Origin: Cordylochernes scorpioides
Taxonomy: Eukaryota; Arthropoda; Arachnida; Pseudoscorpiones; Chernetidae
DNA: 64,000 bases
Assembly: GCA_030710605.1 (NCBI GenBank)
Contig: CP092872.1
Span: 3,268,757-3,332,756 of the forward strand
Direction: 5' to 3'
Below, one piece after another: positions 38,401 through 44,400 of this stretch (within the stretch, counting starts at the first letter, position 1; each line of letters begins with the position of its first letter). The translations under genes and the position numbers were made by a program. Below the pieces are notes generated by a model that saw only the letters and a list, made by a program, of their open reading frames with translations, had not been told where the DNA came from and did not search any database.

Positions 38401-41400
38401 TTTTCTGATGTTCTTCTTCTTCCATACTTACTATAATTGATGGTGTCTGCTGGTATTGAGTAGGGCTTATCATTGGACAAGCCAATACAGTCAATGATAT
38501 GGTTTGAAGTTTCAGGTTGAGAATTTCATTTAGTACATAGTGGGAAAACCTTGCAACCATTCTGGAAAGTCATGGAGGTTCTACTCCATTACTACTTTCT
38601 CCTCTTCTTCTTTCTTATCTCTACTCAATCACACTAAGGTATCAAGCTTGTAAAACTATGACAACCATCATGATTGGGTAAAGTAAAATGTGTCTGCCTT
38701 TGTCATTAAGGCTGGGAGCACTACTCAGTGGCAGGCCGACTAAGCTCCAAAAGAAATGGCCGCCTCTGACATGAGGAACAGATGCCATGTGCAGCCGCTC
38801 CTAACATGGATATATCCTGTATCCCTGGATTAGGAGCCCTTACAGGGCACTATCAGCCGGGCCAGCTGAGCCCAGGTTTTTTTAGTGAGCTTGTTACTGC
38901 TCCCCCTCCTTCTTTTTCATCCGGGCTTGGGACCAGCAAAGGCGGAGTTACTTTCTCCTCTATTATCTAAAATAAGTTGTTTGTAAACTCTCTACTACAG
39001 TAAAGGCCAACAGAGTTGATGTGGTGGCAGACTGCCTACTGGGAGATCTCTACTCTGGTGCTGGCTATCCTCATGTTGATCTTCTCCTCCTTTTCTGAGA
39101 AGAACGTCCTCAGTGAGGTGAGTAGACCTCTTTCAGACATTACACTCACCACCGTCCCTTCTGATAAGAACAGCCACCTCCAACCACCATTGTAGAATTA
39201 TTAATTAACCTGTTCCACCCTCCAATGAAAGTCTTCATTACAGAAAATAAAAATATTAATAATCACAAGTGATAAGGCACAATTTGGATTATAGATTATA
39301 AACACAAGGTAATAAGACCAAATCCAAATAAATAAATAGTGTGTGACGTTTCAGTAACCGCATTGTTACCATCTTCAGACAAAAGTACTGAATGAGAAAT
39401 TTTACCACAGCATGGTTTAAATAGTTACTGTTATCAAGTGTCTGAAGATGGTAACAACACTGTTACCTAAACGTCACACACTATTTATTTATTTGGATTA
39501 GGTCTTATTACCTTGTGTTTATAATTTATAATCCAAATTGTACCTTATCTATATTAATAATGTTTCTTTTACCCATTAATCAGACTTCTACTGTCCTTAC
39601 TGTGATGAAAAAATATATTAGGAGGGCTCTTGGCTCCTCAGTTTCCCAGCAGTTTCACCAATCTAATCTACCAGTAGAAGTGGTGTGTAAAAGAAACTTT
39701 GGCATCCTAATGTTTTCATTTGCTGTATATATAGATGGTGTGTGTGTTATTGCTGTATATTAAGAAAGTCTTCATTCCATATATACACCCTCCAGGACCA
39801 ACCCAGTTATCACCTCCTAGAACAACCATCATTGTAGAATCATCACTTGACCTGATTCAACCTCCAATGAAAGACCACCACCTGAAGAGATCATTGTTAG
39901 ATATTACTAATTGACAAACTACATATATATTATATAATCTAAAATGCAAATATTTTATTTTTTTAAAACATATATTTCATTTTCATTCATTGACTGTTCT
40001 ATATTTTTTGACAATAGATTCAGAAGATACCACTTTAATTATTGTTGTAAATATGTATAGTTAACCCTACCTATTTTTAAAATCACGATTATAGAATTCA
40101 TTCTATAAATTCTATATTGCTGTGATAAATAATTTTTATGTGTAAATTTACTTCAAGTAATTCAAAATAAAAACTACTTGAAAGGTAAATAATTATCTTT
40201 ACTTTTTCACGACTGCACCTCTTTTTCAACAACAAAACAAAAAATAATCATAACATATATATTTCTTCTTCAATTCTCTAACAGCCATTGATGTTTTCCA
40301 GGGCTCCTGTGTTGTGAACCAAGCACCATTTTATTCCTACATCTCCTACGCCTGGTTCACAAAGTGAGTTGTTCACCTAATCTCTCCTTGACTGAATCCC
40401 TGTATTTAGATCATAGCTAGATTATAACACAGTACTCTCTTCTAATGGAATTCTCTATATATAACCTCTCTATAGCCCAACACAGGGGAGGGGTTGAAGT
40501 TTAACTTAGTTTAAGACAGTTCTATATATTGTCTTTAAACATGGATAAGGCACAATTTGGATTATAGATTATAAACACAAGGTAATAAGACCAAATCCAA
40601 ATAATAGTGTGTGACGTTTCGGTAACAGCGTTGTTACCAAAACGTCACACACTATTTATTTATTTGGATTTGGTTTTATTACCTTGTGTTTATAATCTAT
40701 AATCCAAATTGTGCCTTATCAAGACCAAATCTAAATAAATAAATAGTGTGTTTTTATTTGGATTTGGTCTTATTACCTTGAGCCTTTAAACATGTTGAAT
40801 TATTCATCTATTGCAAACATTTTGTGAAATATAAAATAAATATTCACATAAAATAGATTTATATTTAAAATATAAATATTAGCCTATTAGCTTTCTCTCT
40901 GGTACAATGCCTAAAAACAACTTTCTAATACATTAGAACCTTTCTCTAAAGGACAACACCTATTTGCAAAGCCAACCTATCCTTTAAAAAGTAGTGCCCT
41001 CTTACCTGAAATCAGCAAATTGATAAAAATGGTAAATTTTGTGATGGAAAGTATCCTTTATAGAGAGGTGTCCTCTAGAGGGAGTGTCCTCTCATGGAGA
41101 TTTTACTGTAATTGTTTTTAGACCTAACCTATGCATATACAAACTTCTTAAATTAAGAACCTAAAGGGATCAGAGTTTTTATTTGAATTAAGGTCATTGA
41201 TAAGGCACAATTTGGATTATAGATTATAAACACAAGGTAATAAGACCAAATCCAAATAAATAAATAGTGTGCGACGTTTCGGTAACAGCGTTGTTACCAT
41301 CTTCAGACAAAAGTAAATTCAGTACTTTTGTCTGAAGATGGTAACAACGCTGTTACCGAAACGTCACACACTATTTATTTATTTGGATTTGGTCTTATTA

Positions 41401-44400
41401 CCTTGTGTATCGGAGATAAGAAAGAAGAAGAAGACCTTGTGTTTTGAATTAAGGTCAGTTTTATTATAGTGTTGGTTAAATAGCCTTATTGGGATTTTAA
41501 AAATCGGTTGAATTAAAGGTCTTGAATTTAAGAAGTTATACTATATATTGCACAATAGGTAAAGAAACCTGTTGCATGATTTTTTATTTTTAGTTCTCAA
41601 ACAGGTTTAACATTTTGGTTAAGCTATTTACTCAAATTTCTCTAGGGCCTGTGCAATAAGCTAATGTTCTTCAAATCATTCCATTCAGCTCTTCAATTGC
41701 GCTGTATAACACGATTTTTTCCTCAGTTCTTAATAGGTTTTTCTAGTGTATTAGGACACATGCAATTGAAAAATAGCAATTATACACTTCAAACTTTGGT
41801 TTTGAGTCTAGGACATCTATTTATTTGAAAAATGCAAGAAGGACACAAGAAAATGCCCAATAACGATGACAAAGTGCATGAAAAGAAATGAAAATCAGCA
41901 TAATTCCTGTCAATCTAGGCATCTGAAATTTTGCATACTTGCATTGTCATCAGGTTTGAGTGATTGTGTAAATTTTAAAGGTTTCTAGGTAGTCTGAAAG
42001 TTTGTTAAAAATTGATCATAACATTCTGTAACTCTTAAACATACTTCCTGAATACCTAGAAGTCTGAAATTTTGAACACTTGCATTCTCATCGGGATTGA
42101 GAAAGTGTGCAGATTTTTAGGCTTCTACATCTTCTGGAAGTATGTTTAAAATTGATTACAAGTTAAATAAATGCTTCTTTTCTTTTAGAAAAAAATATTT
42201 GTAAAATTTTCTCCCACCTCTCCCATAATACTATATCACCCATTCACTAAACAACCACCTTAGTTGATAAGGCACAATTTGGATTATAGATTATAAACAC
42301 AAGGTAATAAGACCAAAGCCAAATAAATAAATAGTGTGTGACGTTTCGGTAACAGCGTTGTTACCATCTTCAGACAAAGTACTGAATCTATACTAACTAA
42401 TCCATTCAGTACTTTTGTCTAAAGATGGTAACAATGCTGTTACTGAAACGTCACACACTATTTATTTATTTGGATTTGGTCTTATTACCTTGTGTTTAAC
42501 CACCACCTTGTTGTTGCAGCATTGTATACCAGGGGTACTTCAAACGTCTCTCAGTGGAGGTGTTCCTGCCACTCTGTGAGGATCTACGTTCCTGCAGGCT
42601 CTACCAGAGATTCTCATCTATCTACTCTATTTCCTCCAGGTAGATGATGGAGATTACCTGTTCACTGTAATTGACTTAGCCAACCTGTGTTTATCATTCT
42701 ATTGTTGTGTTTATTTACTGTTCCTAGACTTCTACCGTATCACCCTAGTTCTACCACCCTGTATCAGGAACCTTAGTAGTAAAAATGCTCCAATGGCCCC
42801 TGATTCTTAAAAAAGTCCAACCCCACCAGCGAGTGCAAGTAACCAAATAGGGCTCTGGCACATTTGTAAGTGCAAAGTCGAACTGCTTTTTTACATGTGT
42901 AGACATGTGGTGTACTTACAGTAAAATCAGTCGCCTACTTCTACCCACCATTATTATCATGGCCTGTACCACGTGTACTAGGGATAAACAAAAAAAAAAG
43001 GAAGCTTAGTTCACAATCCATCTCAGGTCTGAGTTGTGGTCAGGCAAGAAGAGGTCACAGAGGAAGGGGCAGGAGACGGACTGAGTGTGAAGTCTGCAGC
43101 CAGCCACTGGTCCTTGCTATGGGCCCTTGTGTCCATGGTGAAGAAATCCCTGTTCCTCAGTATCGTACTACAAGTGGTCTCCTGCCTGTTGAGTGTGTCA
43201 CTGGCCTATGTTCTCCAGTAGGTACCATCATGCTGTGGGTTCAATGTGTAGGCATACTCACATGTGTGTGTCAAGTCTTATCCTGGATTACATTCAGTCC
43301 TCAGAGAGAGGCAGCTGGCACGGCTATTTCTACGCCAGTGTCTTCTTTGTGGTGACTTTCATCACTGGTATCACCTACACCCATGCACAGTATGAGGCTA
43401 TCCTCATGGGGGTCCGCATCAAGTCCACCCTCACCTCTGCCATCTACAAGAAGGTAAGACTTCCTCTGTTAATTACTGACTTGTTCTTCTTCTTTCTTAT
43501 CTCCACTCAATCATATTAGGGTATCAAGCTTGTAAAGCTTGAGCTTTGACAACCATCATGAATGGGTGAAGTAGAATGTGTCTGCCTTTGTCATTAAGAC
43601 TGGGAGCACTACTCAGTGGCAGGCCGACTTAGCTCCAAAAGAAATGGCCGCCTCTGACATGAGGAACAGACGCCATGTGCAGCCGCTCCTAACATGGAGT
43701 ACAAACGCTGCTCATCCTGTATCCCTGGATTAGAAGCCCTTACAGGGTACTCTGACTTGTTCTAATTCTTACAGACCTTAATTCTTTCCCCACTCTAACT
43801 TTGATGGGCTAGACATACCAGACCTGTTCAGAAAACATCCACACATGCAGTGTAACAGTGAGAAAATATTCAACAGAACTGTGTCAGTTATGAGCCATTT
43901 CATGCCATCAGTGGCCAACTTAGCAGCCCTTTTAAAACAAATTTTCACTTCTCGCCTTGTCACATGATTGCCTTTTTTACATAGTGCACGATAAGGCACA
44001 AGGTATAATCTATAATCCAAATTGTGCCTTATCATAGATTATAAACACAAGGTAATAATCTATAATCCAAATTGTGCCTTATCATAGATTATAAACACAA
44101 GGTAATAAGACACTATTTATTTATTTGGATTTGGTCTTATTACCTTGTGTTTACATAGTGCACTTAATTTTTTTATTTTGTATATTGCTAATGATTTTTG
44201 TATATTTCATTAAACTTTTTTTTTCTTGTGATTGCATCTTTCAATAGTTCATAAGGAAATATAAAATGGTTCATCCAAAAAATATATATACAGTAGAACC
44301 TCCATGAGAGGACACTACGGCTAGAGGATACCTCTCTACAAAGGACAGTTTTCATTGTCAAAAAATGACTATTTTTACTATTTAACAACTCTCTGGTAAG

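Follow-up and report, generated by a model that had tools for sequence, protein, structure and literature searches.

Positions 41182-41457 of the window, by which we mean the whole 64-kb stretch of DNA that was analysed, hold a copy of element A. This copy consists of arms only and has no ORF; it is a non-autonomous derivative and not a complete Penelope-like element (PLE). Its two arms (41230-41315 and 41323-41408) are 86 nt each, are 99% complementary and flank a 7-nt loop (inverted repeat I1). Both carry CTGAAGA-T-GGTAACA/TGTTACC-GAAACGTC, and the sequence at 41230-41408 agrees with a preliminary description in which each arm was said to hold CTGAAGA, a 7-bp stem and a GAAA-type core. The same description placed cores on both strands, where we located motifs at 41332-41365 (+) and 41273-41306 (-). 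The features of the focal copy are:

41182-41196, no strand: left target-site duplication, TTTGAATTAAGGTCA, an exact 15-nt repeat of 41443-41457
41199-41229, minus strand: PLE tail extension, left arm only (in the arm profile the left arm runs to the end, 111/111, and the right arm to 85)
41230-41315, minus strand: left arm, the 3' part of the pseudo-LTR (pLTR), read on the minus strand (inverted repeat I1)
41273-41306, minus strand: left-arm hammerhead-like motif, found with the motif patterns: CTGAAGA, extra base, 7-bp stem II, GAAACGTC
After the last C (41273), minus strand: predicted cleavage site of the left-arm motif, from the motif sequence
41316-41322, no strand: palindrome centre from the inverted-repeat search, the putative join of two truncated 5' ends
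41323-41408, plus strand: right arm, without tail (inverted repeat, arm profile, tail classes)
41332-41365, plus strand: right-arm hammerhead-like motif (sequence, motif patterns)
41332-41338, plus strand: core of the right motif, followed by the extra T at 41339 (sequence)
41340-41346/41351-41357, plus strand: stem II of the right motif (sequence)
41358-41361, plus strand: GAAA of the right motif, followed by C-G-U-C at 41362-41365 (sequence)
41329-41331, plus strand: TGT, which forms stem I of the right motif with ACA at 41366-41368 (sequence)
41409-41442, no strand: 34-nt stretch between the right arm and the right duplication (sequence)
41443-41457, no strand: right target-site duplication, the 15-nt repeat of 41182-41196

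An arm-profile search with nhmmer (query length 120) returned 55 arm matches and 22 head-to-head pairs in the 64-kb window, bearing out an earlier estimate of more than 20 copies; in all, the profile gave 73 matches. A pattern made of the core plus spacer matched 12 times in the window, compared with a shuffle mean of 0.08. Copies other than the focal one include:

26065-26285, no strand: head-to-head copy of a subfamily with stem II GGTGACAA/TTGTTGCC, with an intact core in both arms and a 19-nt terminal repeat
15745-16031, no strand: head-to-head copy, both arms with intact motif and tail
39273-39546, no strand: head-to-head copy, both arms tailed, with an 11-nt terminal repeat
40546-40718, no strand: short palindrome centred on stem II itself and lacking both CTGANGA parts
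47326-47477 and 52388-52541, no strand: palindromes similar to 40546-40718

Window stretches 17882 and 53596 are not cores, and a 16-stretch alignment containing them was left out; a wider motif alignment, misaligned by MAFFT, was also left out of the results. Of 27 pairs, 19 had a single tailed arm, 3 had two and 1 had none; in the other 4 the arms were cut. Terminal repeats of at least 9 nt were found in 9/27 pairs, compared with 1% of mismatched pairings. Target duplications were present, as had been claimed, and the range first given for them, 11-14 bp, proved too narrow: the duplication is 15 nt at the focal copy and 11, 14 and 19 nt at others, so their lengths are more variable than that range. 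Arm likeness was slightly higher within a copy than between copies (0.851 versus 0.826; 44 of 2000 permutations were as high). Long inverted arms, a short loop and target duplications would also suit a DNA transposon of the fold-back or MITE type that resembles a hammerhead by chance. Variable duplication lengths and the one-sided tail argue against such a transposon, as do a motif frequency far above controls and the PLE ORF carried by the longer relatives examined. We give this explanation a near-negligible probability, and it was set aside once the arms had been traced into that ORF.

In copies with longer arms (L049, L052 and L053), the inner side of the arm leads into a GIY-YIG-type ORF. 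L054 has a tandem arrangement, with an 860-codon frame placed between two motif-bearing pLTRs that are 98.5% identical to each other. The L054 ORF is 31% identical to the L030 ORF over 639 aa (E 5e-75), in an alignment that runs through the GIY-YIG part, and the L030 ORF was scored RVT_1 and GIY-YIG by Pfam. A PLE-type reverse transcriptase (RT) is therefore assigned by similarity to the relative L054, and not to the focal copy. The C-terminal GIY-YIG domain is likewise recognized by similarity, the GIY-YIG fragment of the element A family being roughly 31-49% identical to the GIY-YIG part of other PLE ORFs. Pfam gave no score for the L054 ORF at E up to 1 and nothing at the cut-off for the element A fragment. 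The Y-V/I-D-D and FLD motifs are kept in 7/7 aligned ORFs. Among 150 scored ORF-end matches, 22 of 24 neighbours lying less than 6 kb apart were head-to-head, at distances of 411-4507 bp. The pLTRs thus occur in both PLE arrangements, tandem (L054) and inverted head-to-head, with a short tail on one inverted pLTR (19/27). Element A is of PLE origin: a PLE sharing its arms is present in L049, L052, L053 and L054, as the suggested Penelope relation had anticipated, and the short copies, once proposed to be a non-autonomous Penelope-type family, are the truncated head-to-head form of that PLE. Sequence comparison supports the view that the short copies of element A are palindromic head-to-head PLE pLTR insertions, each arm with a minimal hammerhead-like motif; PLE pseudo-LTRs with a minimal hammerhead are a known kind of element. 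Among the matches listed, no paper title reported a palindromic, non-autonomous or foldback Penelope family.

We consider it probable that element A is the 3' part (pLTR) of an endonuclease-bearing PLE, inserted twice head-to-head at one target site, most likely by dual priming, with a motif that would be dimeric in tandems and silent in palindromes. According to this model, the PLE protein would cut both target strands and, with copies of one RNA as templates, reverse transcription would be primed from both cut ends. Both cDNAs would stop early and be joined at their 5' ends, yielding a palindrome and a short target duplication, and because the starts on the RNA would differ between the two arms, usually only one arm would receive the tail. 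In tandem PLE transcripts the motif would most likely cleave as a dimer through a self-complementary ACGU (or AGCU) stem III, and in short palindromes it would probably be silent because the two arms pair with each other. Alternatively, given the same PLE origin, palindromes might be products of self-priming, with an antisense strand as template, and not of priming on both cut strands; such self-priming has been proposed for A. vaga Penelope elements (PMC3846280). We regard self-priming as somewhat unlikely. Arms usually end at different RNA points (19/27 pairs are one-tailed), which two independent starts fit more easily, and the Anolis PLE protein is described as extending both strands (PMC11167929), although neither observation is decisive.

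The arms of element A contain the core CUGANGA ... GAAA ... UH with one extra base before stem II. This base had been noted earlier, was confirmed here and is common to other PLE families of the genome that have different stem II sequences. An extra nucleotide between A9 and stem II is reportedly the subject of a viroid hammerhead core study. A motif scan gave 69 matches in 358 kb of sequence, 62 of them with a stem I of at least 3 bp, and 0 matches in 1.79 Mb of Markov sequence. In the 2.6-Gb genome, the core-only CUGANGA/ACGU pattern had 55,375 matches versus 141 for a reversed control, where this and all other genome-wide motif counts represent copies and not independent events. Chance hammerhead likeness is ruled out by these reversed-pattern and Markov controls. 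N7 varied more than any other of the 108 arm columns (54% of 35 window rows) and was followed by three CpG positions; the earlier statement that N7 varies while its neighbours stay fixed thus holds for N7, but only relatively for the neighbours, as mean change was 7% in the core versus 6.6% in the rest of the arm. Across 57 motifs, position 17 was C in 41, T in 14, A in 1 and G in 1. Stem III, either ACGU or AGCU, is self-complementary, a property that a dimeric ribozyme needs; none forms within one molecule, and one may form in a dimer. Two of five stem II pairs were changed on both sides between families (7 sequences, other families). Stem II covaries only weakly within element A, where 42 one-sided and 6 two-sided changes keep pairing and 25 break it; pairing was not broken as often as kept, with 48/73 changed pairs still pairing, a modest result that comes partly from one subfamily. 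The stem variant at 26182-26215 does still pair, as reported, by two G-U wobbles. The motif is conserved across families, and these data support the presence in element A arms of a minimal type I hammerhead-like motif that may cut RNA.

The hammerhead reading is backed by cross-family compensation in stems I and II, by stem III, by the free N7 and by position 17, but not by Rfam or by our own covariance model; the covariance-model check proposed for it left the focal element without a match in either. Rfam found no hammerhead in element A at E up to 10, and the sole hammerhead in four PLE loci at E up to 1 was a canonical-type one, L033:1102. Our model (A3, R1) had a narrow training set, namely seven sequences, all of the AGCU type, taken from PLE families other than element A; the focal cores were absent among the 40 window matches of R1 at E up to 10, and the best element A copy scored 9.1 bits (E 3). 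The pattern CTGANGANGGTAACAN{2,8}TGTTACCTTCAG had 0 matches, which is uninformative. Stem I of element A is only 3 bp and is not predicted to form in the pLTR monomer, where an upstream hairpin is predicted to compete for the core; in the predicted fold of the palindrome RNA, every base of the core pairs with the opposite arm. Every core base is intact in 18/31 core-spanning window arms (21/45 over all sources), and in decayed copies the core has eroded no more slowly than the remainder of the arm. With the PLE origin unchanged, it is possible, if less probable than not, that the motif has no ribozyme activity here and that the stem II hairpin, together with its flanking sequence, serves the PLE protein as a signal for binding or priming, or is a vestige. 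The strong stem II, the weak stem I, the missing intramolecular stem III and the covariance-model results would fit this explanation, as would the finding that the inner ends of 73 arms do not cluster at the cleavage site (3 lie within 2 nt of it). Hammerhead mutants of the Anolis PLE also left in vitro insertion unaffected (PMC11167929). Against a signal or vestige, N7 is free while the other core positions and position 17 obey the hammerhead rule across families, and stem III switches between two self-complementary forms.

Element A is short, repetitive and non-coding and bears a type I-like hammerhead, and could also be taken for an animal retrozyme, a non-autonomous hammerhead retroelement spread as circular RNA. 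Known retrozymes are direct tandem repeats with mostly canonical hammerheads (PMC7229834), whereas element A is made of two inverted arms and extends past the cleavage site at its ends; a separate canonical-type motif is present in the genome at L033:1102-1167 (HH9, 31.3 bits, below the cut-off of 52). We judge a retrozyme very improbable and set it aside on architecture, the focal element being an inverted pair and not a direct tandem repeat.

Head-to-head PLE insertions of this genome bear two types of core, CUGANGA/ACGU and CUGUNGA/AGCU. CTGTNGA...GAAAGCTC motifs number 17,549 in the genome, with the position-6 change tied to the AGCU stem III. The crossed combinations were rarer (CUGUNGA with ACGU, 1,280 versus 666 in the reversed control; CUGANGA with AGCU, 4,067 versus 155), and C or G at position 6 with AGCU gave 767 matches versus 325 in the control. 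One unpaired base precedes stem II in all four readable CUGUNGA/AGCU copies. To our knowledge, A6 is invariant in natural hammerheads, and a literature search found no paper on hammerhead A6U. We raise the idea, tentatively and as an unlikely one, that the PLEs of this genome use two coupled core types, CUGANGA with an ACGU stem III and CUGUNGA (A6 to U) with AGCU. If CUGUNGA were active, position 6 and the dimer interface would constitute a co-evolved alternative catalytic core.

As head-to-head PLE pLTR insertions, these elements resemble Penelope/Poseidon-type PLEs such as the Adineta vaga Pen families (PMC3846280) and Anolis PAc (PMC11167929), with a single ORF in which RT precedes GIY-YIG, tandem and inverted pLTRs, head-to-head copies, an optional short tail on one inverted pLTR, short target duplications and a hammerhead in or near the pLTR. 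Unlike the A. vaga and Anolis PLEs, they include very many short ORF-less palindromes, and target duplications reach 15-19 nt in some copies, compared with the 8-10 bp given for A. vaga (PMC3846280). Animal retrozymes (PMC7229834) share short non-autonomous repeats and type I hammerheads with element A but are direct tandem repeats with circular RNAs, whereas element A copies are palindromes. Minimal type I hammerheads, as described (PMC6155905, PMC7761336), have a similar core and stem II, an absent or minimal stem III, dispersed copies and a probable dimeric action; by those descriptions they differ from the families here, which share an unpaired base between core and stem II and include a CTGTNGA/AGCU class. 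A viroid hammerhead core with an extra nucleotide has been published, judging from a title cited in PMC6155905. According to a review, most minimal hammerheads in animal genomes have been found scattered through non-coding DNA, and what those in PLEs do is unknown (PMC7761336). For the many dispersed copies here that are inserted PLE pLTRs in head-to-head pairs, this supplies an origin, along with a model of insertion that can be tested. Several PLE families of this genome differ in stems I, II and III, and hammerhead constraints (the extra base, the dimer interface and position 6) can therefore be read from natural variation, which opens the constraints on PLE hammerheads to direct testing across these families.

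Both arms of the focal copy of element A, a fold-back repeat, carry a hammerhead-like core, as the preliminary description had claimed.

41230-41408: focal element A copy; two facing arms of 86 nt each, 99% complementary, with 7 nt between them

In each arm, CTGAAGA is followed by a single unpaired T and then by a 7-bp stem, perfectly paired and capped by an ACGC loop; GAAAC and GTC come after it. An arm profile search of the window gave 55 arm matches and 22 head-to-head pairs, in keeping with the more than 20 copies proposed earlier. Across all 41 sources, some of which overlap, there were 73 arm matches, forming 28 head-to-head pairs (with pairing greedy for that orientation) and leaving 17 arms without a partner; 3 arm neighbours ran in the same direction and 6 were tail-to-tail. 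The full-motif pattern occurred 8,055 + 8,209 times in the 2.62 Gb of genome searched (24 contigs), against 0 for the reversed control (the pattern read backwards). Fixing the core and GAAACGTC alone, with its ACGT stem III, gave 27,812 + 27,563 copies genome-wide versus 76 + 65.

Covariance models did not recover this core. An Rfam search of element A returned no hammerhead, and R1, a model that we built from other Penelope-like element (PLE) families and trained on seven sequences, all of the AGCU type, gave 40 matches in the window with an E-value limit of 10, the focal cores not among them; the best-scoring element A copy reached 9.1 bits (E 3). The suggestion that N7 varies while its neighbours stay fixed held in its first half: of the 108 arm columns N7 varies most, but in decayed copies core positions change at 7%, compared with 6.6% in the rest of the arm. 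With rates this similar, single copies show no sign of selection, and the hammerhead argument therefore rests on comparison between families. Covariation of stem II within element A was likewise mixed, with 48 of 73 changed pairs still paired but 25 broken. Position 17, which precedes the predicted cleavage, was C in 41 of 57 cases, T in 14, and A and G in 1 each. Folding predicts that the core is wholly paired with the opposite arm in a palindrome transcript; for the pseudo-LTR (pLTR) alone, stem II is predicted to form, with no stem I and with an upstream hairpin occupying part of the core. The inner ends of the 73 arms ranged from 139 to 328; 44 fell at 229-258, about the core start (246), and 3 lay at most 2 nt from the predicted cleavage site.

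A motif scan requiring the core, a stem II of at least 4 bp and a self-complementary stem III found 69 matches in 358 kb of window and loci and none in the 1.79 Mb of Markov sequence used as a control. The window contributed 9 matches, GIY-YIG loci that overlap in part 40, and loci picked by core or arm 20; stem I had at least 3 bp in 62. Stems I and II are TGT/ACA and GGTAACA/TGTTACC in element A, CTC/GAG and GACAAAA/TTTTGTC in a second PLE family, and GAC/GTC and GGGCAG/CTGCCT in a third. The families thus have different stem sequences, with pairing kept. Stem III is ACGT or AGCT, each self-complementary. Among the matches listed, CTGANGA with GAAACGTC had a stem of at least 4 bp in 31 of 53 distinct sequences, all at offset 1, and none in 22; with GAAAGCTC, the AGCT form, 21 of 36 had a stem (14 at offset 1, 2 at 0, 1 at 2 and 4 at 3) and 15 had none. 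Shuffled spacers yield about one per offset. An unpaired base ahead of stem II is thus common to the families. CTGANGA with GAAAGCTC occurred 4,067 times genome-wide (155 reversed) and includes several stem II families particular to it. The non-complementary GAAAGGTC gave 1,556 versus 429 reversed, and most of its matches listed were known families carrying point mutations or else unrelated sequence. Canonical-type, retrozyme-like hammerhead motifs without the extra base lie at window 37228-37293 (-) and, in other loci of the same genome, at L033:1102-1167, L037:3246 and L044:119; the HH9 scores of the window (20.8 bits) and L033 (31.3 bits, E 4e-4) motifs are both below the cut-off of 52.

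Genome-wide pattern counts also point to a second core class. CTGTNGA with GAAAGCTC occurred 17,549 times (376 reversed), compared with 1,280 (666) for CTGTNGA with GAAACGTC and 767 (325) when position 6 was C or G with GAAAGCTC. Four copies of this candidate PLE hammerhead variant (CTGTNGA ... GAAAGCTC/T, A6 to U) were read; all have a single unpaired A, and their stem II spans 4-5 bp.

3903-3932 (-): candidate variant in the window
L033:7788-7817, L037:9215-9244, L046:2122-2151: candidate copies in other loci

Further features of the window are as follows.

23962-24771, 35236-35654, 38900-38954 (-): type-P1 twister matches (covariance model, below threshold)
47805-47926 (+): U4 spliceosomal RNA, 73.6 bits, which marks the genome as eukaryotic
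32081-33169: 54-bp tandem repeat, 20 copies, 99% alike, frames open on both strands
50906-51445: 76-bp tandem repeat, 7 copies, 99% alike

Of the ten sub-threshold twister matches, all on the minus strand, most lie where a 136-bp repeat is arrayed in tandem, and this repeat is possibly twister-bearing; the best scored 49.3 bits against a gathering score of 67.2 (E 5.8e-8), and another, at L030:1875-1929, scored 49 bits.

The search for a full Penelope-like element sharing the element A arms succeeded at L054, a tandem of a pLTR, an 860-codon open frame and a second pLTR, with the pLTRs 98.5% identical and the motif intact in both. This ORF had no Pfam score at E up to 1 and no match in a sequence search of solved structures. 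It shares 31% identity over 639 aa (E 5e-75) with the L030 ORF, in which Pfam scored RVT_1 and GIY-YIG; Y-V/I-D-D and FLD are unchanged across seven aligned PLE ORFs. In three longer-armed copies (L049, L052 and L053) the arms run inward into a GIY-YIG-type frame that stops about 140-160 nt ahead of the motif. This element A fragment had no GIY-YIG match in Pfam and is about 31-49% identical to the GIY-YIG part of the genome's other PLE ORFs. Of two further loci, both head-to-head pairs, L050 has a short piece only of the frame, and L051 has no match to the frame of the longer-armed copies. Two other PLE ORFs, L032:1151-3634 (-), within a ~4.7-kb palindrome, and L040:4770-7073 (+), have GIY-YIG ahead of RT, a permuted order that we take to be the Naiad type.

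Neighbouring ORF ends and motifs are likewise mostly head-to-head, so the short palindromes form the lower end of a size range extending to head-to-head copies with an ORF. Among 150 fragment matches scored of 30,825 candidates, 22 of 24 neighbours less than 6 kb apart were head-to-head, spaced 411 to 4,507 bp. Among the first 100 places of each motif pattern, so were 14 of 17 neighbours within 500 bp for CTGANGA with GAAACGTC and, within 5 kb, 19 of 24 for CTGTNGA and 23 of 27 for CTGANGA, both with GAAAGCTC. A tail of about 24-31 nt, a short extension beyond the arm, was present on exactly one arm in 19 of 27 non-redundant pairs, on both in 3 and on neither in 1; in 4 an arm was cut. Target duplications, described earlier as ~11-14 bp, are present, but the focal one is 15 nt. 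End repeats of at least 9 nt occurred in 9 of the 27 pairs versus 1% of mismatched pairings, and of at least 10 in 4 versus none, two of these four being non-independent mirror images inside one large L032 palindrome. Similarity between the two arms of one copy is little higher than between arms of different copies (0.851 versus 0.826; 44 of 2000 permutations equally high; 25 of 28 pairs usable).

According to PMC11167929, the protein of the Anolis PLE cuts both strands and also extends them, with reverse transcription beginning within the RNA; hammerhead cleavage was seen only with protein added, and hammerhead mutants left insertion in vitro unaffected. By analogy, two cDNAs could be made, one primed from each cut target strand, and joining of their 5' ends would give a head-to-head palindrome, a duplication and a one-sided tail. 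We infer that such two-strand priming and 5' joining may be the source of the palindromes; the rival explanation, put forward in PMC3846280, is that they arise instead by self-priming. In A. vaga, that study describes an optional 31-bp tail on one of the inverted pLTRs, duplications of 8-10 bp, and head-to-head as the commonest inverted arrangement. As far as that account goes, A. vaga PLEs and element A are alike in their one-sided tail, head-to-head pairs and short duplications.
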